The translations under genes and the position numbers were made by a program. A stretch of 34,415 nt of DNA from a virus, in IMG/VR virus record IMGVR_UViG_3300028840_002438, positions 1 through 34,415 of that record. The stretch is one strand, 5' to 3'. Of this stretch, positions 225-34,415 are shown piece by piece. Below the pieces are notes generated by a model. It did not search any database and was not told the DNA's origin. It saw nothing but the letters and a program-made list of their open reading frames with translations. Within the stretch, counting starts at the first letter, position 1. Each line of letters starts with the position of its first letter.

Positions 225-468
225 GCTGTTGGCGTTGGTGGCAGCACTGTCGGTGCTGGTTGTGCAGGTTGGCTGTCTGATAGTCGTCGTCAAACTGGCC
301 CGATCCATCGACAAGCCTGGATCCTCTCGAGAGCCAATGCTGCCCCAGTCGAACACCAACATGGCCGACAAACCTGTTATGCGACAGCCAGGGGTGGTGT
401 ACATGGATGAGGCTCACGAGGCCAGAATCGCCAGGCAGCGGGCTGCAGAGCAGGAGCTGGAGATATGA
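208..468 (+). CDS. Small single-pass membrane protein, 86 aa, unknown function
   Basis: The first 30 or so residues are strongly hydrophobic (ELLALVAALSVLVVQVG, then CLIVVV) and end at a positive KLAR. This predicts one transmembrane helix with the hydrophilic C-terminal 50 residues in the cytoplasm. The rest is polar and charged with no motif I recognise. I chose the ATG at 208 because GAGGAG lies at 194-201 just upstream; an in-frame ATG at 193 would add five residues. It overlaps the regulator by 17 nt and the NeuB-like gene by 4 nt (ATGA), so it is translated as part of the sugar operon. It could be a membrane anchor for the sugar enzymes, a superinfection-exclusion protein or a holin; nothing in the sequence decides. 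Confidence 0.65.
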   Translation: MQMMIELLALVAALSVLVVQVGCLIVVVKLARSIDKPGSSREPMLPQSNTNMADKPVMRQPGVVYMDEAHEARIARQRAAEQELEI

Positions 469-1178
469 GCGATTGCCAGCTCATCATGGATCCCGGCAGC
501 ATCTATAACGAGGACAACCGGTATGCACAGGAGTTCATCGCCCTGGCCAAAGAAGCTGGGGTATGGCTCAAGCCGCAACTGCTGCCGGCATCTGAGGCAG
601 AGGGCACACCCAACCTGCCCTTCGATTTCGAGTCTGCCCCTTGGATGTTCGAATTGGCCCGGGAAGAGGGAGTGACGTTGGTGGGTTCTGTGTGGAATGA
701 GGAGGGGCTGCGGACTCTCAGGGCCTGCGGGGTTGAGAACATCAAATTCAGCTTCTCACAGCGGAAGAACCTGGATCTCATCCATGAGGCATGCAACGAG
801 CCGGCGTTCAAGCGGGTGTTCGTCTCAGGTGATCTGTTCGACACGCCGTGGGTTGAGAACCCCAAAATAATCCGTCTGTACTGCCCATCGGTGGGAGGGG
901 TACCTCTATACCCCCAACCCTTCCTGGTGGACATGGATGGATTATTTGACACGTTTGACGGGCTGTCTGATCACAGTCTGGGATGGAGCCAGACACGGCA
1001 GGCGATGCACAGGGGTGCCCGCTACGTTGAGTTCCATGCCCGGCTGGAGCATAAGTCCGCGACGGCCGATGCTCTATTTGCACGCAGCCCACAGTCCGTG
1101 CTGGATTTCTGCCGGGAGACGGACGAGCCGGTGGAATGGCCACCGGACTACCTGCCCCTCTGGAGGCCCCGGGCATGA
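465..1178 (+). CDS. neuB: NeuB-family nonulosonic acid synthase-like protein, 237 aa
   Basis: NeuB enzymes condense phosphoenolpyruvate with a six-carbon amino sugar to form a nine-carbon sialic, legionaminic or pseudaminic acid. The barrel signatures are visible: AKEAGVWLKPQ (28-38, matching the family's AG-x-x-x-K-x-Q), GVTLVGSVWNEEGL (69-82), an IKFSFSQRKNLDLI strand (93-106), and GLSDHSLG (166-173) followed by VEFHARLE (188-195). His170 and His191 correspond to the two metal-binding histidines of the family and have the same 21-residue spacing as in the characterised Neisseria enzyme. The protein is short: typical NeuB is about 340 residues with a C-terminal antifreeze-like (SAF) domain, absent here. 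The N-terminal AEIG-type motif is altered to MDPGS. ATGA overlaps join it to both neighbours. Family membership looks firm; activity and substrate are inferred. Confidence 0.82.
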   Translation: MSDCQLIMDPGSIYNEDNRYAQEFIALAKEAGVWLKPQLLPASEAEGTPNLPFDFESAPWMFELAREEGVTLVGSVWNEEGLRTLRACGVENIKFSFSQRKNLDLIHEACNEPAFKRVFVSGDLFDTPWVENPKIIRLYCPSVGGVPLYPQPFLVDMDGLFDTFDGLSDHSLGWSQTRQAMHRGARYVEFHARLEHKSATADALFARSPQSVLDFCRETDEPVEWPPDYLPLWRPRA

Positions 1179-1774
1179 CTATCCTGATAGTTGGTAACCG
1201 AGGCAACATGGGTTCCCGGTACACCCAGATCTGTGAGACGCTGGGGCACGATGTGTGGGGGCATGACATTGCAGACGGGAAGAGTTGGGGCGGTTGCAAG
1301 GGGGCTGATTGGGCCATCATCGCCACCCCGGTGGGCACCCACATGGAATGGATAAAGCGGCTGTCCGATTCAGGCGTATCCCACGTTCTGTGCGAGAAAC
1401 CCATAACCACGTCAGCCAGCAAGCTCAAGGACTTACCTTCTGGTGTGTCCATGGTTAACAACTGGGCCTTCCTGTTCCCGTGGCAGATGTTCCCCCAATG
1501 CCACAACATCCACTATTCGAGCCCATGGAGTGGGGGTGACGGGGACTGGGATATGATCCAGCCCGTGTACCTGGCCAACCGACTCACCAGGGAAACGGGC
1601 CCTGTGTTCGACGTACGCATAGACGGGTATCCTGTTACCCGCCATCAGTTCGAGCTGAGCTACGTGTCGATGATCAAGGCGTGGCTCAGGGGGGAGCAGA
1701 TGTGGGGGATTGACAATATCATCGCAGCACATAACCGCGTCCTCAAGTGGATGCAAGGAGCGTTGACACTATGA
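1175..1774 (+). CDS. Gfo/Idh/MocA-type NAD(P)-dependent oxidoreductase, short form, 199 aa
   Basis: The N-terminus is a Rossmann fold, ILIVGNRGNMGSR (3-15), with the G-x-x-G-x-M-G nucleotide loop. The hallmark of the family, E-K-P, is at 74-76 (VLCEKPIT), after an IIATPVGTHM segment (48-57) also typical of it. Gfo/Idh enzymes oxidise or reduce sugar hydroxyls with NAD(P). The usual length is 320-350 residues; here the C-terminal substrate domain is much reduced, which fits small phage-type or sugar-cluster versions or a partly degenerate enzyme. I chose the ATG at 1175, which overlaps the preceding stop as ATGA, over an upstream GTG/ATG in the same frame. It sits between the synthase and the cytidylyltransferase, so it likely acts on the same sugar. 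Substrate unknown. Confidence 0.75.
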   Translation: MTILIVGNRGNMGSRYTQICETLGHDVWGHDIADGKSWGGCKGADWAIIATPVGTHMEWIKRLSDSGVSHVLCEKPITTSASKLKDLPSGVSMVNNWAFLFPWQMFPQCHNIHYSSPWSGGDGDWDMIQPVYLANRLTRETGPVFDVRIDGYPVTRHQFELSYVSMIKAWLRGEQMWGIDNIIAAHNRVLKWMQGALTL

Positions 1775-2457
1775 TCATGGCAGCGATTCAGGCACACTCA
1801 AATTCCACCAGGTTCCCAGGGAAAATCTACGAGAAGCTGGCCGGCAAGAGCATCCTTCAACGGGTGGTTGAGTCTGCCCGGGACGTTGTACAGAACGTGG
1901 TGGTGCTGGGTGTGGAATCTGATCAGGAGCTGCGGGACTACTGCATCGACAACCGGATCCCCGTCTACTTGTCCAAAGAACCCGAGAACGATCTGGTGGC
2001 CCGGTACTTGGACTGCATGACTGCCTACCGGGTGGCCAATGTGGTGCGACTGACGAGTGACTGCCCACTGCTGTCTGTCCCGATGTTGGACTATTGTGTC
2101 AGGATCCACATGACGAACCAGATGGACTTCACCAGCAACGGGTGGCCGCTGGCACGGACGGCCCCTGACGGGTGGGACGTCGAGGTGATCAGCCAGCGAC
2201 TGATGCTGCATGTAGACAAAATGGCCGGGACACCCTACGACAGGGAACACTGCACCAGCTACATCTACTGGAACGAGCCGGAGCTGGTACACTCTGATCA
2301 CCCCTTCAAGCTCTGCAACGTGAAGTACGGGCTGCAGATGGACACCCCCGAGAACAAGTGCTCCGTCGATACCCCCGAGGATCTCGAGCGTCTGCGTGAA
2401 CGCATGGATGCCAAGCCGGCATCACTGTCTGGCATCGAGGAGGATAGATCCAAATGA
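1771..2457 (+). CDS. spsF: SpsF-type cytidylyltransferase (COG1861-like), 228 aa
   Basis: The start MIMAAIQAHSNSTRFPGK (1-18) matches the IIQARMGSTRLPGK signature of SpsF proteins, the nucleotide-binding loop of NTP transferases. NDLVARYLD (74-82) and RLTSDCPLL (93-101) match the DVLARY and R-x-T-x-DCPL motifs that bind the nucleotide and metal. SpsF-like proteins stand beside NeuB-like genes in many bacterial surface-glycan clusters, where they are thought to activate the product as a CMP-sugar; that activity is established for related CMP-NeuA/PseF enzymes and inferred for SpsF. The length is normal for the family. The ATG at 1771 overlaps the previous stop as ATGA, and the next gene starts the same way. 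It would supply the donor for any transferase, including the Maf-like protein at 20270-21490. Confidence 0.85.
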   Translation: MIMAAIQAHSNSTRFPGKIYEKLAGKSILQRVVESARDVVQNVVVLGVESDQELRDYCIDNRIPVYLSKEPENDLVARYLDCMTAYRVANVVRLTSDCPLLSVPMLDYCVRIHMTNQMDFTSNGWPLARTAPDGWDVEVISQRLMLHVDKMAGTPYDREHCTSYIYWNEPELVHSDHPFKLCNVKYGLQMDTPENKCSVDTPEDLERLRERMDAKPASLSGIEEDRSK

Positions 2458-3596
2458 GCTGGCAGTCACGGGCAGAAAAGGTACTCAAGCCGACGACATT
2501 CTCGAAGCAGCCCAACTACTACATCAGGGGTGTCCACCCTACCCACGTTCGGAGTGGGCAAGGGAACTACCTCACTGGCCCGGACAACGAGGTGATCTTC
2601 GACACCACCGGTGGGCTGGGGAGCAACCTATGGGAGTGCAGGAACAACTTCGCGCTGCCGTCCACCAAAGAGGTGATCCTCGCTGAGATGCTCGTCACAC
2701 GCATTCGTTGTGCTGACATGGTGCAGCTTGTGAAGACTGGCTCCGAGGCGTGCAGTGCAGCCATCAGGTATGCCCGAGCGTTCACTGACAGAGGGCAGAC
2801 GGCCGGCACAGGCTACCATGGATGGCACAATCTGTTCATCGCCGCCGAGTCCCCGGGGGCAGGATGCTACTACGAGGGATACCGCAAGTGTCAGAATCTG
2901 AATGAGCTGACAGACTATGCCGATCACAACCGCGATCTGGCTGCAGTCATCATCGAGCCGTGGGAGCTGGATCCCAATGTCACTGATAAGCTGGAGGCAC
3001 TGCGTAGCGTCTGCACTCAGAATGGGATCGTGCTGATATTCGATGAGGTGATCTCAGGTGCCCGAGTGCCCAAGTTCGTGGTTGCCAACTACACAGACGT
3101 ACAGCCTGATCTCATCGTGATGGGGAAAGCCCTGGGAGGTGGGTACCCGCTGGGGATCTGTGCCGGCAGGCGTGACATCATGTCAACCCCAGGAGTGTTC
3201 GTCTCATCGACATTCGCCGGGGAAGAGTCGACGCTGGACGCTGCAATCGCCACCATGCACAAGACGACTGACGATGAGCTGATGCGGTTCTATGATCAGG
3301 CCAATGACTTCCAGCGGAAGTTCAACTACGAGGGGGAAGGGCTGGTGTGGCTGGAGGGGTATGGGACACGGACGGTGCTGCGTGGGCAGAAGAACTATGC
3401 AGCCATCCTGTCCCAGGAGATGTACCGGAGGTACCGCACGTTGATGATGGCCAATGGCCCCCTCATCCCCCATATGAGCTGGAAAACGTCTGACTACTCC
3501 CTGATCATCACCCAGATGCGGCCCATCGTCAAGGAGCTGGACACGCTGCAGCTGGAGGCTGAGCCCGAACCAATCTTCAAGAGAGTGAAGGACTGA
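2454..3596 (+). CDS. Class III PLP aminotransferase (HemL/GSAM-like), 380 aa
   Basis: This is a fold-type I PLP enzyme. TGSEACSAAIRYAR (95-108) is the phosphate-binding stretch, YHGWHN (121-126) carries the ring-stacking aromatic, IIEP (166-169) and IFDEVISG (195-202) give the cofactor-binding Asp197, and MGKALGGGYPLG (223-234) gives the Schiff-base Lys225. The closest well-known relatives by motif are glutamate-1-semialdehyde aminomutase and sugar-cluster class III aminotransferases. It is about 50 residues shorter than HemL. In this operon it most likely aminates a keto-sugar, the step done by DegT-type PseC/LegC in standard pathways. Residues that contact the substrate cannot be read by eye, so a tetrapyrrole role is not formally excluded but has no support nearby. 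ATGA overlap upstream; the next gene overlaps its stop by one base (TGATG). Confidence 0.87.
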   Translation: MSWQSRAEKVLKPTTFSKQPNYYIRGVHPTHVRSGQGNYLTGPDNEVIFDTTGGLGSNLWECRNNFALPSTKEVILAEMLVTRIRCADMVQLVKTGSEACSAAIRYARAFTDRGQTAGTGYHGWHNLFIAAESPGAGCYYEGYRKCQNLNELTDYADHNRDLAAVIIEPWELDPNVTDKLEALRSVCTQNGIVLIFDEVISGARVPKFVVANYTDVQPDLIVMGKALGGGYPLGICAGRRDIMSTPGVFVSSTFAGEESTLDAAIATMHKTTDDELMRFYDQANDFQRKFNYEGEGLVWLEGYGTRTVLRGQKNYAAILSQEMYRRYRTLMMANGPLIPHMSWKTSDYSLIITQMRPIVKELDTLQLEAEPEPIFKRVKD

Positions 3597-3913
3597 TGGC
3601 CTGCAAACAGTGTGGGAAGTGCTGTACCCAATTCAGCATCGTGTACCCCAACAACGATGAGCAGGCGGAGTTCCTCAGGGCACGGGGGTTCAAAGCCTGG
3701 CAGTCCAATGATAAGTTCACCCAATGGGTGCTCAGGACGAGATGCCCACACTTGACACAAGAGAACAAGTGTGACATCTATGAGGGCCGTCCGCTGGCCT
3801 GCCAGGTTTTCCCTGTGACTCTCATGTACCAGAAAATTGGGCTCGATCCTGACAAGGCCGTCCCCAAGGGTTGTGGATACAAGTTCAACGAGGAGACGCA
3901 AACCTATGAGTAG
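3596..3913 (+). CDS. YkgJ/UPF0153-type cysteine-cluster protein, 105 aa
   Basis: The N-terminus MACKQCGKCC has cysteines at 3, 6, 9 and 10, and a second set lies at C50, C59 (NKCDIYEGRP) and C69, with another at C93. This C-x2-C-x2-CC plus C-x-IY-x-x-RP-x-x-C layout defines the YkgJ family, predicted to bind zinc or an iron-sulphur cluster. The biochemical role of the family is not settled. YkgJ-like genes do occur in flagellar glycosylation and surface-sugar clusters, so its place inside this operon may be functional. It overlaps the aminotransferase stop by one base and the next small gene by eight. Confidence 0.8.
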   Translation: MACKQCGKCCTQFSIVYPNNDEQAEFLRARGFKAWQSNDKFTQWVLRTRCPHLTQENKCDIYEGRPLACQVFPVTLMYQKIGLDPDKAVPKGCGYKFNEETQTYE

Positions 3914-4601
3914 GGCTGATCGATTGGCCGAGGTGTTGTACAAGACGCTGTGGGTGATGCGTGAGTACGGCAACGGTGGCACGGCATATGAGGCAGAACT
4001 TCTGATTGAGGAAATGGAGGCAACGTGTATTGGATATCAGGATGCGGAACTCTGGCGCGAGAGCTTGTCCGCCAAATACAAGAGAACTGCGGGGGAGACA
4101 CCCGCATCACCATCTTCTCTCGAAGCGAAAGTCGCCAAGCGGATATGCGACGGGATTTCCCTGAGGGAGGATCCACAGGACTGCGTTACCATATCGGCGA
4201 CATCAGGGACTACGAGCGCGTCAGACGCAGTATCGGTAACCGTCACCGATATGTCCTCCACACCGCAGCCCTCAAACGAGTTGACACAGGAGAGTACGAG
4301 CCCTGGGAGTTCGTCCAAACCAACGTCAACGGGAGCTGGAACGTCATCCGAGCCTGTCATGAATCAGGAGTCGAGCGATGCATGCTCATCTCCACCGACA
4401 AGGCCGTTGCACCCATCACCCACTACGGAGCAACCAAGTTGTGCATGGAGCGACTCGGAATCGGAGCCAACAACCTCGGAACCTGCGGAATCAGCATCTG
4501 TAGATACGCCAACGTCACCGGATCAACCGGCTCAGTCCTCCCGCTCTGGCAATCGCAAAAAGAGAAAGGGAAGCCGCTCACGATCACAGACAAACGAATG
4601 A
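3906..4601 (+). CDS. Unknown protein; long frame overlapping the dehydratase gene, up to 231 aa
   Basis: The ATG at 3906 overlaps the YkgJ-type stop and has GAGGAG at 3889-3894. The first 40 codons fill what would otherwise be the only gap in the operon and look like a normal soluble helical protein (ADRLAEVLYKTLWVMREYG). The frame then runs on for about 190 codons inside the dehydratase gene, in its +1 frame, and gives a Ser/Thr/Pro-rich tail ending in a basic stretch (RKKRKGSRSR). No family is recognised. It may be a small real protein with a chance extension, or a truly overprinted gene. The dehydratase codon choice over the overlap (CTC and GTC in place of CTG and GTG) would keep this frame open, which argues for the second reading but does not prove it. 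Confidence 0.45.
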   Translation: MSRADRLAEVLYKTLWVMREYGNGGTAYEAELLIEEMEATCIGYQDAELWRESLSAKYKRTAGETPASPSSLEAKVAKRICDGISLREDPQDCVTISATSGTTSASDAVSVTVTDMSSTPQPSNELTQESTSPGSSSKPTSTGAGTSSEPVMNQESSDACSSPPTRPLHPSPTTEQPSCAWSDSESEPTTSEPAESASVDTPTSPDQPAQSSRSGNRKKRKGSRSRSQTNE

Positions 4602-4954
4602 CGAGGATGTGGATTTCCAAAGAGGACGCCGCCGAGTTCGTTCTGTACTGCCTGAATTGCTTTGAGCGTGGATGCATATTCGTACCGAAATTTGTCCGGG
4701 CCCGACGTCTGATCGACATGGCCCGCGAGATCGCTCCCGAGCCGTACCCTGTCACAGAGATCGGACTGCGGCCACATGAGAAACTCCATGAGGTGCTCAT
4801 TTCTGAGGGGGATGCCCGGCACACCTACGAGCAGGACATTCGATACACAATCTACCCGGCCCAGCATGACTGGGGGAAAGTACCCCGACGTGGTGTGCAG
4901 TGTGATGAAACTTTCCGTTTATCATCGGCGGTTCTGACTGGAGGAGAAGGCTAA
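4025..4954 (+). CDS. pseB: PseB/FlaA1-type UDP-N-acetylhexosamine 4,6-dehydratase, 309 aa
   Basis: An SDR-type NAD(P) enzyme of the CapD/PseB group, which removes water from UDP-GlcNAc to give a 4-keto-6-deoxy sugar, the first step to pseudaminic- and legionaminic-type sugars. Visible motifs are an N-terminal GCGTLARELVR in place of the usual TGGTGSFG loop, IFSRSE (30-35), GDIRD (58-62), HTAALKRV (79-86), TNVNGSWNVI (99-108), and the catalytic set STDKA (Asp125, Lys126) with YGATK (Tyr134, Lys138). The nine-residue spacing from Asp125 to Tyr134 matches the known PseB/FlaA1 active site. The start is GTG at 4025 with GGAGG four bases upstream. It lies in a +1 overlap with the gene from 3906. 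UDP-GlcNAc as substrate is inferred from family. Confidence 0.88.
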   Translation: MYWISGCGTLARELVRQIQENCGGDTRITIFSRSESRQADMRRDFPEGGSTGLRYHIGDIRDYERVRRSIGNRHRYVLHTAALKRVDTGEYEPWEFVQTNVNGSWNVIRACHESGVERCMLISTDKAVAPITHYGATKLCMERLGIGANNLGTCGISICRYANVTGSTGSVLPLWQSQKEKGKPLTITDKRMTRMWISKEDAAEFVLYCLNCFERGCIFVPKFVRARRLIDMAREIAPEPYPVTEIGLRPHEKLHEVLISEGDARHTYEQDIRYTIYPAQHDWGKVPRRGVQCDETFRLSSAVLTGGEG

Positions 4955-4955
4955 A

Positions 4956-5735
4956 GTGGACGACACGCATGCATCAGTGGTGAACTACTGGAATCACCGC
5001 AGCCAACTGGGTGACATGGCCGGTACCCGTGATCTGGCAGCGAAACGGTTGGAGATGGAGACGCTTGCCACGCACCTGAGGCCTGCTGGAAAAGTGCTGG
5101 ACGCAGGCTGTGGTAACGGCCTATCCATGGCGTGGCTCAAGAACCAAATGCCTGATATCGATTTATATGGCATCGACAACTCCGATGGAATGGTGGGTGC
5201 TTGCAAGGCTCACCTCCAGTCAGAGGGGTGTGAGGCCACAGTCGAGCTGGCGTCTGTCCTCGACTACGATCCCGGGTTCAAGTTCTCAACGATCTACACT
5301 GAGCGCACCCTCATCAACCTCCCCGATTGGGATACGCAGAAACGGGCCATCCTGCACATCCTGTCACTGCTCGAGCCGTCTGAGTTGGGAGTGTACCTCA
5401 TGATGGAGAACTCGCAGGAGGGTGTTGACATCATGAATGCATGGCGGCACAAGCTGGGGCTGGATCCCGTGAAACCTCCGTGGCATAACCGGTACCTCCG
5501 TGATGCTGAGTTGGAGACGATATTCGACAACGATCTGGCCACGCTGTGGGGTATCATCGACTACAGTGCCGGGTACTACCTCATGTCCCGGGTGGTGAAT
5601 GCGTGGCTGGCCAAGCAAGAGAACCTCGAGCCTCAGTACGACAGCCCCCTCAATACACTGGGGATTATGCTTCCAGAACTCGAATCACGGACGTTCGTGG
5701 GGCAAGGTAGGCTGTGGGTTTGGCAGACAAAATGA
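4956..5735 (+). CDS. Class I SAM-dependent methyltransferase, 259 aa
   Basis: Motif I, VLDAGCGNG (47-55), binds S-adenosylmethionine; DLYGIDNSDGMV follows as the acidic-loop motif II, and TIYTERTLINLP is the motif IV-like strand. The layout is that of UbiE/Methyltransf_11-type small-molecule enzymes, not of DNA methylases: there is no DPPY or PCQ motif. The start is GTG at 4956 with GAGGAGAAGG at 4941-4950, one base after the dehydratase stop. Being between the dehydratase and the acetyltransferase, it probably O- or N-methylates the operon's sugar product. The acceptor cannot be seen from the sequence. Confidence 0.8.
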   Translation: MDDTHASVVNYWNHRSQLGDMAGTRDLAAKRLEMETLATHLRPAGKVLDAGCGNGLSMAWLKNQMPDIDLYGIDNSDGMVGACKAHLQSEGCEATVELASVLDYDPGFKFSTIYTERTLINLPDWDTQKRAILHILSLLEPSELGVYLMMENSQEGVDIMNAWRHKLGLDPVKPPWHNRYLRDAELETIFDNDLATLWGIIDYSAGYYLMSRVVNAWLAKQENLEPQYDSPLNTLGIMLPELESRTFVGQGRLWVWQTK

Positions 5736-6154
5736 GAGTGTCTGACACGTTGATAGAACGGGACATCCAGGACTCTGATGCAGGGTTCCTGTATTACCTG
5801 CTCGCCACCAGATCACCTGCTGCATGTATTTCTCACAGGGCCCTCCCGACATGGGATCAGCATCTGGCGTACCTGGAGAAGATATCGAATGAGTGGCCGG
5901 CCGTCAAGATGGTGTGTGAGAATCACAGTTCATCCCCGGTGCCTGTGGGGTACTACTACCTCACCCCGATGTATGAGATAGGGATCCATACAGAGAGAGG
6001 GAAAGAGCGTTACCACCGTGAGATACTGGAACACATAATGAGGGTGCACAAAGGGAAGAGACTGCTGGCCAATGTGGCACCCTCAAATGAATTCCACCAT
6101 CAACTGTACCGGGGAGCAGGCTTCCGTTTGGTTCAGGAAACGTATGAGGTGTGA
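5732..6154 (+). CDS. GNAT-family N-acetyltransferase, 140 aa
   Basis: The order of elements fits a small GNAT enzyme: an N-terminal strand-helix with WDQHLAYLEKI, a VGYYYLTPMYEIGIHT pair of strands, then a helix and strand VAPSNEFHHQLYRGAGFRLV that matches the conserved C-terminal GNAT pattern (N-x-x-x-x-x-x-Y-x-x-x-GF). The acetyl-CoA loop is poorly conserved. In pseudaminic acid synthesis the GNAT enzyme PseH acetylates the 4-amino sugar made by the dehydratase and aminotransferase, so this gene completes a plausible three-step set with those two. The ATG at 5732 overlaps the methyltransferase stop as ATGA; a GTG at 5714 is an in-frame alternative. Last gene of the operon; only two bases separate it from the convergent gene ending at 6157, with no terminator hairpin between. 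Confidence 0.75.
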   Translation: MRVSDTLIERDIQDSDAGFLYYLLATRSPAACISHRALPTWDQHLAYLEKISNEWPAVKMVCENHSSSPVPVGYYYLTPMYEIGIHTERGKERYHREILEHIMRVHKGKRLLANVAPSNEFHHQLYRGAGFRLVQETYEV

Positions 6155-6357: not shown

Positions 6358-7338
6358 TTAGATCGCCTTATATCTGAGGTAGCCTGAAATCCCCTTGGTA
6401 TTTGCAGCCGTCCAGCCATCACCTCTGTAGTTGCTGTAGCACTCAACAGTTTTCGTGGCGGTGGCCACCTCAACAGCACCAGGGAATGTCAGTGCCGAGG
6501 TGTTATCGATAACGGCGGCGGCGTGGAACAGCAGCCCAACCCCATCGGTGGCGGCAGTGACAGGGAGCGTCATCTGCATGCTGGTGGCGGTTGAGGTGCC
6601 TTGTGCATAGTACCACACATCCACCATGGCACCCAGCTGTTGATAGTACCCGTATTCAGTGTGCCCTGCATCGAGCCCGGTGAACGCAGGAGTGAACGTC
6701 GTGTACTGAGTAGAGTAACAGTCCCCGGCAACGGCGACAGCTCCTCCAACATCCAATGATCCACCAATGGTGGCCGCAGTAGTCACCTGCAGGGAATCCA
6801 CAACGCCTGTCGCGGCCCCGGTGATTACGCCACCCACATCCAGAGTGGTTCCCATGGTGGCGGCTGTCGTCACCTGCAATGAATCCACTGTTGCTGAACC
6901 TGCAACAGCAACGGCTCCCCCGATATCGGCTGCACCGCCAATGGTGGCCGCAGTAGTTACCTGCAGTGAATCAACGACACCTGTCGCGGCACCGGTGATC
7001 ACCCCACCAACATCGAGGGTAGTCCCAATGGTGGCTGCAGTTGTCACCTGCAGAGAGTCCACCACGGCCGTGTTGGCTACTGACAGGGTTGACGACAGGG
7101 TGGTGGCCCCGGTGACACCCAGAGTCGATGCGAGGGTAACTGCACCCGTGACACCCAGAGTGGTTCCCACGGTAACCGCACCCGAGCAGGTGATCGAGTT
7201 GCACTCCAGATCGGCAACGTTGATGTCCTCAGTACCATTGCTCAGTCCATCAGTCACGTCGGTGAAGTTGGTGTTCACCTCGGTGGCATCAGCCGTGGAA
7301 CCATTGACAAATGTGTAGGTTACTGCTATGTAGGCCAT
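6358..7338 (-). CDS. Tail fibre-like protein with repeats, 326 aa
   Basis: The N-terminus (AYIAVTYTFVNGSTADATEVNTNF) is the kind found on phage fibres and baseplate proteins. The middle is built of beta-rich repeats: first short ones (VTGAVTLASTLG, VTGATTLSSTLS), then four longer units starting VDSLQVTTAATIG with about 29-30 residues each, in an ABAB pattern. These give thin trimeric fibre shafts in related proteins. The C-terminal 110 residues are a separate domain with many aromatics (HTEYGYYQQLGAMVDVWYYA), a likely receptor-binding or trimer-closing tip. It is Thr/Ser-rich, so it is also a possible glycosylation target. Function inferred from repeat architecture and position. Confidence 0.75.
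   Translation of the reverse strand: MAYIAVTYTFVNGSTADATEVNTNFTDVTDGLSNGTEDINVADLECNSITCSGAVTVGTTLGVTGAVTLASTLGVTGATTLSSTLSVANTAVVDSLQVTTAATIGTTLDVGGVITGAATGVVDSLQVTTAATIGGAADIGGAVAVAGSATVDSLQVTTAATMGTTLDVGGVITGAATGVVDSLQVTTAATIGGSLDVGGAVAVAGDCYSTQYTTFTPAFTGLDAGHTEYGYYQQLGAMVDVWYYAQGTSTATSMQMTLPVTAATDGVGLLFHAAAVIDNTSALTFPGAVEVATATKTVECYSNYRGDGWTAANTKGISGYLRYKAI
6770..7065 (-). repeat. In-gene direct repeats of the fibre shaft
   Basis: Four copies of a unit of about 87-90 bp encode the VDSLQVTTAATIG repeats. Copies 1 and 3 resemble each other most, as do 2 and 4, so the array looks like a duplication of a two-unit block. Such arrays change length by recombination and can alter fibre length. 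Confidence 0.85.
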
Positions 7339-16594: not shown

Positions 16595-17092
16595 TTACGC
16601 CTCCACAGGGGCTTTGGCCCCCATCTTCTCCTGCTTTTTCTCACACGCCCTCATGTGAATGATCAGGCCCTGCTTCTTGGTGAAGCTGCCCTCACAGAAC
16701 GGGCAGATGTACTCCTTCTCAACCGTCTTGTTGGCCGGATCTTGCTTCAATTCGGCCAGAATCTGCTCCTTCAGGGCCCCCACATCCACATGCTCCCGAT
16801 TGTTGATCCCCAGGTGCTGCAAATAGGCGTCCTGAGTTGGGAACAGCTGCCCGGTGCGGTGATCCGTAACCGGTGTCTTGTCCTCTGACACGTTCTCGAA
16901 GATCTTCTCGATCTCGAGCGACACCGGGACGTTCTTTCCACAGTAGTGGCCCCTGATCACCACCGCCTCACGCCTGGACACAGTAATAGAGTCCCCAGCC
17001 TTGATGTGATATTCCGTGCCGTTGACGATCTGGTGGAAATCAGTGTCTCCACGATTCCACAACCTGGCCTTCCGTGCTACTTTAGGCATCAC
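16595..17092 (-). CDS. Structural-block protein with C-terminal zinc finger, 165 aa
   Basis: Residues 1-70 form a small beta domain (HIKAGDSITVSRREAVVIRG) of the kind found in phage capsid-associated proteins. At the C-terminus, C130-x2-C133 and H146-x3-C150 (CPFCEGSFTKKQGLIIHMRA) make a classic CCHC-type finger like a C2H2 finger, with a basic tail. A nucleic-acid-binding finger on a structural-block protein is uncommon; it may contact packaged DNA. It overlaps its upstream neighbour by four bases. Confidence 0.65.
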   Translation of the reverse strand: MMPKVARKARLWNRGDTDFHQIVNGTEYHIKAGDSITVSRREAVVIRGHYCGKNVPVSLEIEKIFENVSEDKTPVTDHRTGQLFPTQDAYLQHLGINNREHVDVGALKEQILAELKQDPANKTVEKEYICPFCEGSFTKKQGLIIHMRACEKKQEKMGAKAPVEA

Positions 17093-17370: not shown

Positions 17371-19168
17371 TGTAGTACCCGTCCTTCCTGGGATTGATGA
17401 GATGGACGGCGATGGTGCCTGTGGTGGTGGCTGCAGTCGTAATGGTGAGACGAGCCCACTCTCCGAACTGATAGAGTGGCGGCATGGCTACATTCTGGGC
17501 ACCCCAATGCAAAGATTCATAGCTCTGGATGCCTGATCCGATGACTTCCCCATACACCGGACGCCAGGTTGAGAGATCATTGGACACCTCGGCATACATC
17601 GTCACCCGGGCAGTGCTCAATGTCGTGAAGGAGCTGTACTGGGGTGTGTCCACCACAGCCACAGGCCATTCCATGGTGTTCCAGGCTGTTGATGAGTAGT
17701 CCCCGGTGGCGATGGAGACGTTCACAACTCGAGAGTTGCCATAGGTGCCTGGGGAGGCTGCCCCGGTTGTCGGGAGGGTAGACGGCTTAGGAGGCACAAG
17801 AGATGCCCACTTGGCCCCGGCGAAATAGTCGGTGCCCCAGGTGTTGCCGGCAATATCTGTGGTGTTGGAACCAATGGCCGGAGAGCGAGAGGATGAGTAT
17901 GTGCTCGTCGGCTCAAGGAAAGTGCTTCCGTCTGCTGGGTTGATGGATGCGAACGCCTGTGGAGTGTTAGGATTATCGGCTCCTGTGGGTGCTCCATCAC
18001 AGAAAATGGTGTCGATGGTGCCTTTGATCGCCAACGTGTACGCATCATAGTCATAGGCGCACATGTTGTAGTTGGTGTACGTCCTGGATCCATAGTACCA
18101 CGGGTTTCCTCCTGCGGCTCCAGATCCGTACAGGACGATGTTCTCCGACGTGGCTGATGAGCACCCGTTCATCACATAACTGGCGTTTGCAGCAAGCCCG
18201 TCGTCCCATGCTATCAGATCGTAGAAATAGCAGGTGTCTCGGTTGAACGCATCATTGAGCCCGAAACTTCTGCACGAGTACCCATTCCCGTCCGTCATAA
18301 ATTCACGACAGTACACAGTCTTAGCCGACACCTGCCCACCGATCAGAAATGCCCAGTGAGTGGTGTTGGCATTCCACTCGAGACGGATCTTCTCGATGGT
18401 GTATGTTCCTCCCCCGTACGTAGATGTGGCAAACAGCGAGTCAGCGTTATAGTTGGTGCTCACGTAGTACCCGGCAGTCATATCACCTTCGTGCCAGTTG
18501 GATGAGTCGACCGTCAGCAGAAGATTATGGCCACCCAGGCTCACGTTGATGTGGCAGGCTCCTGTCTCTGACACATCGGTTTCCTGGGTTCCCGTGAGAT
18601 CACCTGCGAGGCCCCCTACGTCGCCGCAGAAATTACTCCAGAGAGCGTAGTCCTTCGCAACCCCGACGGTGTAAGATCCGGAGTTGATAGCAGCACGATC
18701 ATCCACCTGCACATCAACATCAGGAATCATTCCATCCCTGCCGAATAGGAGCGTGTCCTGCAGGTTGAGTTGACTCCCGTCGAACGGCGTCTTCGATGAT
18801 CCTGAGAGGTAGTCCTCTGAGGTTATGTTGAGCTGCGACAGCACCGAGGGCCTCAAATAAAGTTTGTGCCCACAGATGATGTCATCCCGGAGACTCGGAT
18901 CAGCCCACCGATCATTTTTGAGGACAGGGCCCGACTGCTGAATGAAGAATGGCTCTGTACTTGTTGGGAACTTAAGAGTCAGATAGGCCTTCTTCTGCAT
19001 CTTAAGAGCTTTGGAGTCAGCGAACCACTTATCGCATTCGGCCTCATCGACAATCTGATATGAACAGAATGACATATTCGGGCACATGTACTTCCTGAGC
19101 CAGTCGACAGAGTCACCTGGACTGCCGGGAGTACCGCGTTTGAAGTGTGCCAGAAGTACGTCAGCCAT
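17360..19168 (-). CDS. Beta-helix-like virion protein, possible tail spike/adsorption protein, 602 aa
   Basis: The middle has many short Asn/Gly/Ser/Tyr-rich strands, and SPAIGSNTTDIAGNTWGTDYFAGA resembles the end of parallel beta-helix proteins (SPAID-x-G...DI-x-G). The C-terminal 110 residues (VSNDLSTWRPVYGEV) look like a separate beta-sandwich. Parallel beta-helix proteins in phages are usually tail spikes that bind or cut surface polysaccharide. The start at 19168 overlaps the previous stop by eight bases; an in-frame ATG further up would lie inside the neighbour. Function inferred from fold features. Confidence 0.55.
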   Translation of the reverse strand: MADVLLAHFKRGTPGSPGDSVDWLRKYMCPNMSFCSYQIVDEAECDKWFADSKALKMQKKAYLTLKFPTSTEPFFIQQSGPVLKNDRWADPSLRDDIICGHKLYLRPSVLSQLNITSEDYLSGSSKTPFDGSQLNLQDTLLFGRDGMIPDVDVQVDDRAAINSGSYTVGVAKDYALWSNFCGDVGGLAGDLTGTQETDVSETGACHINVSLGGHNLLLTVDSSNWHEGDMTAGYYVSTNYNADSLFATSTYGGGTYTIEKIRLEWNANTTHWAFLIGGQVSAKTVYCREFMTDGNGYSCRSFGLNDAFNRDTCYFYDLIAWDDGLAANASYVMNGCSSATSENIVLYGSGAAGGNPWYYGSRTYTNYNMCAYDYDAYTLAIKGTIDTIFCDGAPTGADNPNTPQAFASINPADGSTFLEPTSTYSSSRSPAIGSNTTDIAGNTWGTDYFAGAKWASLVPPKPSTLPTTGAASPGTYGNSRVVNVSIATGDYSSTAWNTMEWPVAVVDTPQYSSFTTLSTARVTMYAEVSNDLSTWRPVYGEVIGSGIQSYESLHWGAQNVAMPPLYQFGEWARLTITTAATTTGTIAVHLINPRKDGYYSDR

Positions 19169-19580
19169 GGGGGTGGCCTCCTGCCATGTACTGTCGGGCC
19201 GGGAACTGAGCCACATTCCCGTACTGGAATGAGAAGTCACAGCTCATCGTGGCTGTGGCGTTCTCCCAGGTTTTCACACGTAGGTAAGGAAGGCCGGTGA
19301 CAGGGATAGGAATTACGCAGGCCCCCGACGTCTTGATGTCCCATAGATCACCGAACCCCACACTTCTGCCACGATACAGGGTTTTGTAATCGGTGTAGTT
19401 CTGGGAGACGTAGATGCGGATCTCGATGGTGGCCGTACCGAAGTACGAGCCAACATCTGGAATGGACAGATAGCAGGACTTGGCCCCAGGGATGTACCAC
19501 TCCACAGAGGCTGTATCGCCCACCTTGAACCATTTGCTTCCAGTCGTTACCCTGGAATCAACCACCTTGACAAGGGACAT
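19161..19580 (-). CDS. Small structural protein, 139 aa
   Basis: A beta-rich protein with no helix of note (KWFKVGDTASVEWYIPG, IEIRIYVSQNYTDYKTLY) and a compact size suited to a decoration or tail-associated jelly-roll/sandwich domain. It follows two more small beta-rich genes and overlaps the beta-helix-like gene. No family recognised. Confidence 0.6.
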   Translation of the reverse strand: MSLVKVVDSRVTTGSKWFKVGDTASVEWYIPGAKSCYLSIPDVGSYFGTATIEIRIYVSQNYTDYKTLYRGRSVGFGDLWDIKTSGACVIPIPVTGLPYLRVKTWENATATMSCDFSFQYGNVAQFPARQYMAGGHPHG

Positions 19581-19595: not shown

Positions 19596-19976
19596 TCAGT
19601 TGGTGGGATCACGATACATATGCACCTTACAGGCGAGTCCTGCGGCCGTGGCCGTTTGGTTCGACAACTTGATGCGAATGTACCTGCAATAGGCTGCTGG
19701 CTCACACACTGCGATGTAGTTGCCGCTCGAGGTGTTCACCTCCCACGTCATGATCCCCGATCCGGCCGAGTACACTCCCATGTACCGGACAGAGCGGAAT
19801 GCTGACGTGGTAGAGGTGGACGATCCCTCGATCTCTACTGACGTGGTGGATGTCGAGCACCCAGCCGCGAACGTAGGGATCTCCAAAGCCACCCGAGGAT
19901 ACTCCAGCACCTGGATCGCTTCAGAAAGTGCCTCACCATCGGCAATGGTGGCCGTAGCTACCTTGTAGACAGCCAT
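19596..19976 (-). CDS. Small structural protein, Ser/Thr-rich, 126 aa
   Basis: Beta-rich, with a striking CSTSTTSVEIEGSSTSTTSA segment (about residues 40-59) that repeats STSTTS twice. Such Ser/Thr tracts are exposed loops and would be good O-glycosylation sites. Good SD (GGAGGG) just upstream. No family recognised; the setting between capsid and tail genes suggests a virion surface protein. Confidence 0.6.
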   Translation of the reverse strand: MAVYKVATATIADGEALSEAIQVLEYPRVALEIPTFAAGCSTSTTSVEIEGSSTSTTSAFRSVRYMGVYSAGSGIMTWEVNTSSGNYIAVCEPAAYCRYIRIKLSNQTATAAGLACKVHMYRDPTN

Positions 19977-19989
19977 GGAGTGGCCCTCC

Positions 19990-20250
19990 TTACTTTCCGA
20001 AGACGACTACGCTGTAGATGCTCCCTGAGACGCAGCTCTGGAACGCGATATCACCGACACCCGAAGCGGCGGTGTTGTACACCACCCCGGCACCGTTGGT
20101 GGCCGATGTCTGGGGGGTAGCAATCGCCCCGTTGACATACTGCAGCCCGGTGGCCACGGCATCGGTGCCGTCAGTCATGGTGACTGTGCCAATGTGGACA
20201 CGCTGATCACCCATGACAGTCTTGACAACCCACGTTGCTGAAGAAGCCAT
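19990..20250 (-). CDS. Small structural protein, 86 aa
   Basis: An 86-residue beta-rich protein (VHIGTVTMTDGTDAVATGLQ, IYSVVVFGK) with no charged coiled coil or membrane segment. It is directly downstream of the Maf-like gene with 19 bases between and has an AGGGAAAGGGA SD. Small proteins like this near the capsid gene are usually decoration or tail-tube-like subunits. No family recognised. Confidence 0.58.
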   Translation of the reverse strand: MASSATWVVKTVMGDQRVHIGTVTMTDGTDAVATGLQYVNGAIATPQTSATNGAGVVYNTAASGVGDIAFQSCVSGSIYSVVVFGK

Positions 20251-20269: not shown

Positions 20270-21490
20270 TTAAATGAGGAAACTGTATTTCACGTTCGGA
20301 TCATTCAACAGCTCCGGCATCCTCTGGTAGCGTTTGAAGATGTACAGAAACTCTGCAAGCCTCATGTTGGGGATCTGGATGATGTTCCCGTTGGGATACG
20401 CCCCCAGAGTCCCACCCTCGGTGCAGTTGTACACCATCATGGGGTTGTTCCCCTTCCCACCAAGCAACTGGAATTCTATCCAATTGCGGAAATTTTGGTA
20501 GGACTGCCAACTGTACACCCTGTTGCCGAAAATATCGGTACATGGCACCAGCCCGGCGAATTTCGCATCGTACTGTGAATCCCACGCATGGAACTTGTGG
20601 GTGTAGTCGAATGCGAAGTCGGTACCGATGAACGCGATGGGTGCTGAACCGAAAATGCACACGGCATGGTAGAATACGGCCCCAAACGTATTCCCTCCGA
20701 CGTTGTAGGCCACCTTGAGCTTCGGTATCAAGCTCTCCATCTTGTTGATGAATTCAGGATCCGGAATCAGGCAGTTGAACCAGTAGATCTTGCCTCTCCA
20801 TTTCTTGATGAATTCAGGGTGTGACACGGCCGCTGCGATAAGGACTTTGTCCTCAGTCTCAGCCCAATATTCCTCGGGCTTCTTGGCCCCACCCTCAGAC
20901 ATCTCAGAGATGGTGATCTCACCAGCGTCCAGGTTCACCCAGTACTTGCAGTCAACACCCTTGTCACTGAAGAAGGGGAAGTTGTGACAGCAGGATACGA
21001 TGGGGATCTCGGGTGGTTTCTCTTTGGCCAGAACATCGACGTTTTTCTTCAACGAAGGCCCACTCCCGGCACAGATGCAAGGCCGGTAAGCGTACTTGCC
21101 GTGGAGCTTCATCACCGAGTTTCCCTCGATGTCGTTGTTGTCACGATTGATGCGGATGTGATCGAGCCACATGTCCCGCCATGACTCGGCGGTGATGGCA
21201 TCGTTCGAGCAAGCCTGTCCGTAGAGCTGGGACTTGTTCAGCGGAGGAGCGGCGATGGGTGGCTGGTACTGCAGAATCATCGGCACCATACCCTTCTTCT
21301 CCTCTTCCCACTGGGCCTGCTGCTGTTCGAACTCCTTCACTTTCTGAATGAGTTCGTCCTTCGTGAACGCCGTCATGTCAGCCGAAACCGACGTCATCGC
21401 TGTGGCTGGTACCTGGCCTGCTATGGCCGAGTCCAGAGGTGCTGTTGCAGAGGTTGCCGGAACTGTCAAAGAACCGTTTTTCTCACTCAT
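20270..21490 (-). CDS. DUF115/Maf-like glycosyltransferase candidate, 406 aa
   Basis: CICAGSGPSLKKNVDVL (138-154) carries the GSGPSL motif of the DUF115/MptE-like domain, which is the catalytic domain of Maf motility-accessory factors. The usual following elements are there: IVSCCHNFPFFSDKGVDCKY with WVNLDAG (a substrate-binding strand and acidic residue), and NVGGNTFGAVFYHAVCIFG then IAFIGTDFAF with a nearby HKFHA, matching the family's G-x-x-L-x-x-x-A-x-x-LG and LiG-x-D-x-x-x...H pattern. Maf proteins attach CMP-nonulosonic acids to flagellin Ser/Thr. An N-terminal low-complexity part and a coiled coil (DELIQKVKEFEQQQAQWEEE) precede the domain. The start chosen (21490) has GGAAATAGGG upstream. 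Alternatives: another DUF115 activity. Substrate is inferred. Confidence 0.7.
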   Translation of the reverse strand: MSEKNGSLTVPATSATAPLDSAIAGQVPATAMTSVSADMTAFTKDELIQKVKEFEQQQAQWEEEKKGMVPMILQYQPPIAAPPLNKSQLYGQACSNDAITAESWRDMWLDHIRINRDNNDIEGNSVMKLHGKYAYRPCICAGSGPSLKKNVDVLAKEKPPEIPIVSCCHNFPFFSDKGVDCKYWVNLDAGEITISEMSEGGAKKPEEYWAETEDKVLIAAAVSHPEFIKKWRGKIYWFNCLIPDPEFINKMESLIPKLKVAYNVGGNTFGAVFYHAVCIFGSAPIAFIGTDFAFDYTHKFHAWDSQYDAKFAGLVPCTDIFGNRVYSWQSYQNFRNWIEFQLLGGKGNNPMMVYNCTEGGTLGAYPNGNIIQIPNMRLAEFLYIFKRYQRMPELLNDPNVKYSFLI

Positions 21491-21603: not shown

Positions 21604-22083
21604 TTACATACACTGAACGAGTGCGTGGAAGTTACCCGCAGTGGTAGTGGCCGTGAGAGCCTTGGCGAATACCGCCTTGCTCCACGTAGTGCCAGTTCCA
21701 CCGGTGGGCGCATCCACGGAACCGTCAGCAGCCGTCGCAATCGGGTAACCTGCAGCAATCGCGGTGTTGCCAGCATTCTCGAGCATCATGATGCCGCTAC
21801 GGCCAACCCACCCGTAGGTGGCTGTCGTAAGGGTGGCGTTCTGCACGACACCGAATGGCTTCGAGATGGGATCGATGATGCTGGAAACCGTGACGCTGTA
21901 CCCGGTGACGGCCGACAGAGTGCAGATTTCCCCAGGATTGATCTGGGTAGTTCCTGCATTGTACACGTACTGGTACAGAATTTCACCTTCGTAGCGCAGC
22001 GTCCCAACTTCAACACTGTTGGTGGCTGTCACTGCGGAGACTGACTCTGTCCAGACTGTCGGGAGTCCATATGGCCCTGCCAT
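21604..22083 (-). CDS. Head decoration-like protein, 159 aa
   Basis: The gene right after the major capsid protein. It is rich in Thr, Ala, Gly and Val, nearly without charges, and beta-rich (YEGEILYQYVYNAGTTQINP, GYPIATAADGSVDAPTGGTG). This composition and position are those of capsid decoration or head-fibre proteins. It contains the segment KALTATTTAGNF near the end, another Thr-rich loop. Assigned by position and composition, not by a named domain. Confidence 0.62.
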   Translation of the reverse strand: MAGPYGLPTVWTESVSAVTATNSVEVGTLRYEGEILYQYVYNAGTTQINPGEICTLSAVTGYSVTVSSIIDPISKPFGVVQNATLTTATYGWVGRSGIMMLENAGNTAIAAGYPIATAADGSVDAPTGGTGTTWSKAVFAKALTATTTAGNFHALVQCM

Positions 22084-22220: not shown

Positions 22221-23138
22221 TTACGCAATGGCGTTCATCTTCCCCTGCATACGGCAATTGCTGCACAGGAGCTGCCCGGCCCAGAAAATCTTGGCCGATG
22301 CTACAGCCTGATCCACTGGCTGGACGAAGGGCGAGAAGCGGAAATTATCCTTGGGGTGATAGCCAAGTTTAAGGTACTTCTCATTTAGCATGAAGAGGTG
22401 GCTGGCCGGAACGTGACTATCCACAATCATCGGGATACCATTGTACATCACGTTCATGAATCCACCACGAGCAGTATCGTCGTCGGTGAACCTCTGCTGA
22501 GGAGTCAGGAGGTTGACGTAGTCATCATAGATGTCCTGCGTCGTCATGGCCACGGTTGGCTTGTCATTGCCGACAGTGCAGTCCCCGTACAGGGCCTGCA
22601 GAGCGTTCATGGTGAGCACAGTCGTGGTGCTGTCTTCCTGAGCACTCCACCAGGTGTAGGTTCCCCGGGCAATCGAACCATAGGTGCCGGCCGAGTCGAC
22701 GGCGAGGCGCAGCCCGACGATGGCATCGGTGGTTGTCCCGAGGTTGTACAGCCCGGTTCCAAGCGCATCAGCCATTGTAAGCTCAGCAGCCTGGACTTTC
22801 GAAGCCACGAATTCGATCACCTGGGCATCGCCGTTGTTCTGCAGCTCAGCGGTGTGCTCGATGGTGATGTTCTCGTAGCGGTAGCCCCACTCGTACTCAG
22901 CAGCCGTGATCTGATCGTTGGCTGTGGTTGAGAGGGTGTCGGTGCCGGAATACCAGCCACCGGCGGTTGTGGTGGCGTACAGGACAGGCTGAACGATCCG
23001 GGTTCCACCGCTCAGAGCCTTGTACGAGTTCTTCCTCATCCTCTGCAGCAAAGAATTGCTGTTGAACACATTGTCCACGAGCATAGGAATGAACGTTTCC
23101 TGTGTCGTAGCAGACAGTTCGGTATACGAAAGTGCCAT
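22221..23138 (-). CDS. Major capsid protein candidate, 305 aa
   Basis: Follows the scaffold gene and has the length and composition of HK97-fold capsid proteins. The start ALSYTELSATTQETFIPMLVDNVF, a beta-rich E-loop-like region (VQPVLYATTTAGGWYSGTD), the spine-helix region (EFVASKVQAAELTMADALGTG) and an A-domain end (YNGIPMIVDSHV) fit. The C-terminus carries a C-x2-C (LLCSNCRMQG), which is unusual. The 5' SD is GGAG. It is the only candidate in the block for a major capsid protein; sequence similarity to a named family was not testable. Confidence 0.8.
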   Translation of the reverse strand: MALSYTELSATTQETFIPMLVDNVFNSNSLLQRMRKNSYKALSGGTRIVQPVLYATTTAGGWYSGTDTLSTTANDQITAAEYEWGYRYENITIEHTAELQNNGDAQVIEFVASKVQAAELTMADALGTGLYNLGTTTDAIVGLRLAVDSAGTYGSIARGTYTWWSAQEDSTTTVLTMNALQALYGDCTVGNDKPTVAMTTQDIYDDYVNLLTPQQRFTDDDTARGGFMNVMYNGIPMIVDSHVPASHLFMLNEKYLKLGYHPKDNFRFSPFVQPVDQAVASAKIFWAGQLLCSNCRMQGKMNAIA

Positions 23139-34258: not shown

Positions 34259-34287
34259 TTGACAGCTCAGGATTCCTGTGGTATCTT
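34259..34287 (+). promoter_or_regulatory. Promoter of the sugar operon
   Basis: TTGACA (34259-34264), a 17-base spacer and TATCTT (34282-34287), a full -35 and a four-of-six -10. The same -10 is at 11-16 in the left copy. Transcription would start near 34294, equal to base 23 of the left copy, and reads the regulator and all sugar genes. Confidence 0.75.
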
Positions 34288-34415
34288 CTGAGCATTGTTA
34301 ATATTCTTTTAACCCGGAGACATACCTCCCATGGCAGACATGGTTACCCTCACCACCATCGTGAGTCAGGAGCTGGCCGACAAGGTGCGGGCTGCTGCTG
34401 ATGAGGATGGGCGCA
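34272..34415. repeat. Terminal direct repeat, right copy (circular joint)
   Basis: Identical to bases 1-144. It contains the -10 of the plus-strand promoter and the first 28 codons of the ribbon-helix-helix gene, whose complete copy is at 60-224. Confidence 0.95.
34331..34415 (+). CDS. Ribbon-helix-helix gene, partial copy cut by the window end
   Basis: Identical to the first 85 bases of the gene at 60-224. It is the same gene on the circle, not a second gene. Confidence 0.9.
   Translation, partial: MADMVTLTTIVSQELADKVRAAADEDGR

Follow-up and report, generated by a model that had tools for sequence, protein, structure and literature searches.

A Maf-like DUF115 protein in the capsid operon of a podovirus clade is retained with a nonulosonic-acid-type cassette and may modify the virion

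Maf flagellin glycosyltransferases (PF01973, Maf_flag10) have been described from Magnetospirillum (PDB 5mu5), Aeromonas (Maf1), Clostridium botulinum (Maf) and Campylobacter (PseD). Bacterial Maf acts on flagellin in the cytoplasm before export (PMC4065374) and takes nonulosonic donors (PMC11339370), and a bacterial Maf-2 needs the co-encoded factor GlfM (described in PMC13317340). The mycobacteriophages Che8, Corndog and Myrna glycosylate proteins of their capsids and tails with transferases of their own (Freeman et al., 2023, cited in PMC12363180); these enzymes are annotated there as ordinary glycosyltransferases, whereas the locus described here combines a Maf-type enzyme with a near-complete phage-encoded nonulosonic-type pathway. 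For HRPV-1, the VP4 glycan has been reported to carry 5-N-formyl-legionaminic acid (Kandiba, 2012, cited in PMC6137143), and a nonulosonic acid on the particle of a prokaryotic virus is what it would share with the system proposed here. It differs in that the glycan is N-linked and in that no legionaminic acid pathway is encoded by the virus and the host is predicted to supply the sugar (PMC6137143). The literature searched, which left out preprints and most subscription papers, gave no description of a Maf from a phage or of a virion system in which the phage encodes nonulosonate synthesis; this absence is not proof.

The window, meaning the whole stretch of DNA analyzed here, is the IMG/VR virus record IMGVR_UViG_3300028840_002438 (34,415 bp), a podovirus-type genome of 34.4 kb that encodes a terminase, a portal, a scaffold-like protein and a major capsid protein (MCP) of the podovirus type. 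The record was taken as complete because its two ends are identical over 144 bp. The features of its ends and of the capsid region are the following:

1-144 and 34272-34415: terminal direct repeat of 144 bp, two identical copies
22221-23138, minus strand: MCP (NF033394 capsid_maj_Podo, E 2e-78; phrog_9953)
21604-22083, minus strand: decoration-like protein encoded between the MCP and Maf genes, one of the candidate acceptors (from its position; related ORFs in 82 Maf+ loci)
20270-21490, minus strand: putative Maf-like DUF115 glycosyltransferase, 406 aa (PF01973; structured part approximately residues 40-406)
19990-20250, minus strand: p86, encoded next to Maf in every intact core locus, leading candidate for the acceptor or for a Maf accessory factor (from its adjacency)
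19596-19976, minus strand: Ser/Thr-rich small protein of 126 aa, second candidate acceptor (two STSTTS stretches)
19161-19580, minus strand: small protein without assigned function in the same gene run as p86

The Maf gene is thus located downstream of the MCP gene and is flanked by the decoration-like gene on one side and by the three small genes on the other. The product of the last of these (19161-19580) has no Pfam match above the cut-off and no relatives in the loci compared. Signals for a terminator or for a promoter of the Maf gene itself were not above chance in the window, and none of the RNA families sought was found there. Elsewhere in the genome, a C2H2-zinc-finger-like protein is encoded inside the structural gene run (16595-17092), a family with a comparable placement (f17) occurs in 13 of 22 Maf+ records, and a tail-fibre-like protein (6358-7338) contains internal repeats of 87 bp (29 aa).

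The product of 20270-21490 matches PF01973 (MptE-like, formerly DUF115) with 59 bits and an E value of 6e-16, above the cut-off of 34.6; the GSGPSL motif occupies residues 142-147. All 69 aligned Maf relatives match the family as well, at E ≤ 0.01. Its best NCBIfam match is FlagModPseD (PseD, Maf-type flagellin modification protein; E 1.4e-7), scoring 30.6 bits against a cut-off of 670, and the full three-domain architecture of flagellin Mafs is therefore not met. Because of this low score and of its length, 406 aa compared to 666 aa with most of the flanking domains missing, the protein was classified as Maf-like and not as a flagellin Maf. In the profile search the Magnetospirillum Maf 5mu5 was the best match (E 8e-5) and the only convincing one in the PDB. 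The AlphaFold2 model (pLDDT 90) likewise retrieved the 5mu5 glycosyltransferase in first place with Foldseek (E 1.4e-8), followed by the human sialyltransferase ST8SiaIII (1e-4) and the archaeal MptE/HPPK structure 8sd5 (1.6e-4). TM-scores were modest (0.44 on the query against 5mu5), showing that the relation is one at the level of domains. Values of dN/dS between 0.05 and 0.17, computable only for close pairs, indicate that the gene is under purifying selection. Profile and predicted fold thus confirm a DUF115 relative of Maf, with catalytic activity inferred. An earlier note on this DNA had claimed such a protein, placed between the decoration and the small structural genes, and both the family and the position (between 21604-22083 and 19990-20250) proved correct.

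With the flagellin Mafs, the phage protein shares the DUF115 domain, the relation to the sialyltransferase fold and the co-encoded nonulosonic-type pathway, and both adjoin genes of a self-assembling surface structure. They differ in that flagellin Mafs are encoded next to flagellin genes, whereas the phage gene lies behind a capsid gene, has p86 as its partner and occurs in a genome without flagellin. A different function is suggested by the Pfam family name and by the match to the archaeal HPPK: the protein could have nothing to do with the sugar cassette and be a pterin diphosphokinase of the MptE type, or else a glycosyltransferase whose substrate is DNA or a small molecule. We regard this as highly improbable, since 5mu5 is better by four orders of magnitude in the fold search and alone convincing in the PDB profile search, and since the gene sits in the capsid operon and is retained together with a CMP-nonulosonate-type pathway (see below). 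MptE or archaeal HPPK is consequently the closest counterpart neither in fold nor in context, the context being a sugar cassette and capsid genes.

When Maf, portal or NeuB was used as a single query sequence, the viral, genome and phage collections yielded no relatives. Relatives were found with an MCP alignment, which gave 80 related viral loci, with PF01973 present in 7 of the 50 records tested. An alignment of four Maf proteins, 41-49% identical to the one of the window, then retrieved the family from 85 viral stretches, and 80 loci (36-52% identity) were kept; Maf is encoded by at least 80 IMG/VR contigs. The window protein is not represented in PHROGs. Scans of genome contigs gave no prophage or cellular copies, and the host of the phage therefore remains unknown. 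In all 82 loci that contain both genes, the MCP gene is followed by Maf on the same strand, with a median gap of 539 nt that is usually occupied by one decoration-like ORF. About 80 further viral contigs have this gene in the same position and with the same partners, so that the arrangement seen in the window is well beyond chance.

Most relatives have the gene order NeuB, terminase, portal, scaffold, capsid, decoration, Maf, p86 and small genes, followed by neck and head-completion genes, tail genes, PseB, Gfo/Idh, CTP, aminotransferase and a PseH-like acetyltransferase, with nearly all genes from NeuB to the acetyltransferase on one strand. In the MCP tree, one branch (support 83) separates the core Maf+ phages from all others, and no loss was seen among 57. 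The Maf+ phages thus represent one clade, and the co-occurrences reported here reflect one gain with faithful retention and not many independent gains. Several members of the clade (G072, G075, G079, G085, G096 and other relatives) encode a tyrosine-recombinase-like gene (family f27), which suggests that part of the clade is temperate.

A second lineage of related phages, represented by the five loci L042, L046, L049, L067 and L071, encodes a divergent DUF115 protein in the corresponding slot behind the capsid gene. p86 is absent from all five, and a search for NeuB in four of the records was negative. The protein of L049 (11340-12995), followed by an FkbM methyltransferase gene, has a long additional N-terminal part before the DUF115 domain and looks like a fusion of a PmgQ-like and a DUF115 part. 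PmgQ of phage P1 (L297) resembles this N-terminal part, and P1 PmgO has a weak PF01973 match below the cut-off; the two P1 proteins are possibly separate counterparts of the L049 parts. PmgQ itself was rejected as a DUF115 homologue, because its similarity lies outside the DUF115 domain. The P1 pair and the corresponding pair of Citrobacter phage phiNP resemble the system described here in the PF01973 similarity of PmgO and in being listed as putative morphogenetic functions. They differ in being short separate proteins without assigned function that are not encoded behind a capsid gene, and, unlike in Maf+ phages, no cassette is present in the stretches examined.

The cassette of the window is located at 465-6154 on the plus strand, opposite to the capsid genes, and comprises the following genes:

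465-1178, plus strand: NeuB/PseI-type synthase barrel, 237 aa, no SAF domain (PF03102, PseI)
1136-1774, plus strand: Gfo/Idh/MocA-type oxidoreductase, N-terminal half (PF01408)
1747-2457, plus strand: CMP-sugar synthetase (CTP_transf_3, SpsF/KdsB-like; PF02348, E 2e-14)
2454-3596, plus strand: class-III (glutamate-1-semialdehyde-type) PLP aminotransferase in place of PseC (PF00202)
3596-3913, plus strand: CxxCxxCC putative metal-binding protein inside the cassette (PF03692)
4025-4954, plus strand: PseB-like UDP-GlcNAc 4,6-dehydratase (TIGR03589, E 1e-81)
4956-5735, plus strand: SAM methyltransferase, possibly for sugar tailoring (PF13649)
5714-6154, plus strand: GNAT-like acetyltransferase, PseH analogue (only weak Pfam matches; homologues in G012 and L133)

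In most relatives the slot of the acetyltransferase is taken by a PseH-like gene (TIGR03585). The residues conserved across 20 phage NeuB homologues (K36, Q38, K94, D169-H170, E189 and H191) are kept in the window, as is the PLP lysine K225 of the aminotransferase. The SAF domain is missing from NeuB in the sub-lineage of the window, G012 and G052 and was seen, as a weak match, in a full-length relative. PseB of the window (274 against 407.8) and PseH (72 against 93.1) and PseI (151 against 340) of the relatives are best-named matches below the curated cut-offs, and the UDP-sugar hydrolase PseG was found in none of 22 Maf+ records. The cassette is thus not a canonical pseudaminic acid pathway (PseB-C-H-G-I-F), but it qualifies as a nonulosonic-acid-type pathway in the broad sense of a NeuB condensing enzyme with a CMP-sugar synthetase. 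Since PseG was not found and a class-III enzyme replaces PseC, the exact sugar is unresolved.

Not counting the window, 16 of the core Maf+ records are 33 kb or longer; NeuB was detected in 15 of them, and the CTP_transf_3 CMP-sugar synthetase likewise in 15. NeuB was absent from all 36 capsid relatives that do not belong to the core clade, including L067 and L071 with their divergent DUF115 protein. Clustering of the genes of 22 Maf+ records placed the aminotransferase in 21, NeuB in 20, PseB in 19, the CMP-synthetase in 18 and Gfo/Idh in 15, and the main cassette families in none of 10 control records. The cassette is therefore nearly as conserved as the capsid genes in the Maf+ clade. In most relatives it shares the strand of the late operon, which it flanks; in the window, G012 and G052 it lies on the other strand. 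These data bear out the nonulosonic-acid-type cassette that the earlier note had claimed for this genome, and the co-occurrence of Maf and neuB in other phages, which it had proposed to check, was found.

Which protein might receive the sugar was inferred from position and composition. The p86 family (approximately 89 aa) is encoded directly downstream of Maf, usually after 9-14 nt, in all 79 core loci with downstream sequence, a count that omits four core loci ending at or shortly after Maf. It was never found without Maf and is absent from all Maf- loci; the family of the 126-aa protein is likewise confined to Maf+ loci. Both families have a median Ser/Thr content of about 21%, compared to about 12% for all genes. 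The AlphaFold2 model of p86 (pLDDT 78) is a small beta protein, a beta-sandwich, with weak fold matches to tail-fibre domains. The earlier note had pointed to Ser/Thr-rich small virion proteins, and this proved the weakest part of its argument: STSTTS does occur twice in the 126-aa protein, and the Ser/Thr content of the decoration protein is higher in Maf+ than in Maf- phages (19.9% versus 16.4%, a modest difference without correction for kinship), but the MCPs of the two groups do not differ. These contents fit glycosylation without demonstrating it, and beta-rich surface proteins are often Ser/Thr-rich, which counts against the argument. The decoration-like protein (21604-22083 and relatives) diverges far faster between close relatives than MCP or Maf, as if by swapping or diversifying pressure; L158 and L156 are 60% identical in this protein, 99% in the capsid protein and 96% in Maf.

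The strict one-to-one adjacency with Maf could also mean that p86 is a dedicated accessory or specificity factor with a role like that of the co-encoded GlfM, which a bacterial Maf-2 requires (PMC13317340). The decoration or the capsid protein would then be the acceptor, in line with the higher Ser/Thr content of the Maf+ decoration protein, and the virion would remain the target. This variant is possible, and we consider it the less probable role for p86, since its own Ser/Thr richness and weak likeness to phage fibre domains make it look like a virion surface protein.

A target outside the virion has to be weighed as well. The characterized Maf enzymes of the cited papers act on flagellin (PMC4065374, PMC13317340), and some relatives, with their tyrosine-recombinase-like gene, may be temperate, so that in infected or lysogenic cells Maf and cassette could modify a protein of the host surface, for example flagellin, resulting in lysogenic conversion, superinfection exclusion or a change in motility; the site in the capsid operon would then only be convenient for expression. 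However, Maf has its place between the genes for capsid and neck and is linked to p86, and most relatives have the cassette flanking the late operon and on the strand of the latter. In lysogens, genes of the late operon are usually silent. We therefore judge a host target to be unlikely. The virion was inferred as the target from the fixed place of Maf behind the capsid gene, from the exclusive p86, from the location of the cassette, which in relatives flanks the late operon, and from the absence of a flagellin gene from all 22 Maf+ records.

Our preferred reading, to which we give a probability of about 0.7, is a self-sufficient virion glycosylation module, in which a phage-made CMP-nonulosonate and the Maf of the capsid operon modify a virion surface protein. 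In this module, for which catalytic activity, donor and exact sugar, acceptor, attachment to the virion and any benefit are inferred, the phage would turn UDP-GlcNAc, PEP and CTP of the host into a CMP-activated nonulosonic-type sugar. The predicted steps would be 4,6-dehydration by the PseB-like enzyme, transfer of an amino group by the PLP aminotransferase, acetylation by the PseH-like enzyme, NeuB-type condensation and activation by CTP_transf_3. The Maf-like DUF115 enzyme, produced in the cytoplasm together with the head proteins, may then attach the sugar to Ser/Thr of a small protein of the particle surface, either ahead of assembly or in its course. The most likely acceptor is p86, and the decoration or the 126-aa protein may also serve. 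The benefit could be a charged, shielded or host-mimicking particle surface. Several points speak against this module: there is neither biochemistry nor an isolate, PseG was not found in the Maf+ records searched, PseC is replaced and the window NeuB has no SAF domain. In addition, the phage Maf is much shorter than 5mu5, the cassette of the window is on the strand opposite to the capsid genes, and the MCP shows no enrichment in Ser/Thr and the decoration protein a modest one.

Only a few phages are known to direct the glycosylation of their own virions, and the prokaryotic virus particle known with a nonulosonic acid gets its sugar from the host; here, a whole clade retains genes for making and for transferring the sugar nearly as faithfully as its capsid genes. 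We lean slightly towards the broader proposal that this podovirus clade, which is uncultured, has made flagellin-type glycosylation a core component of its virion, with its own CMP-nonulosonate and a Maf that decorates the dedicated p86, giving a sialic-acid-like coat independent of host glycans. Since one small candidate acceptor can be named, the idea of virion glycosylation is testable by co-expression of a few genes. It is relevant to the ways in which phage particles escape recognition, diffuse and adsorb, and would provide a compact, non-flagellar Maf for protein glycoengineering.
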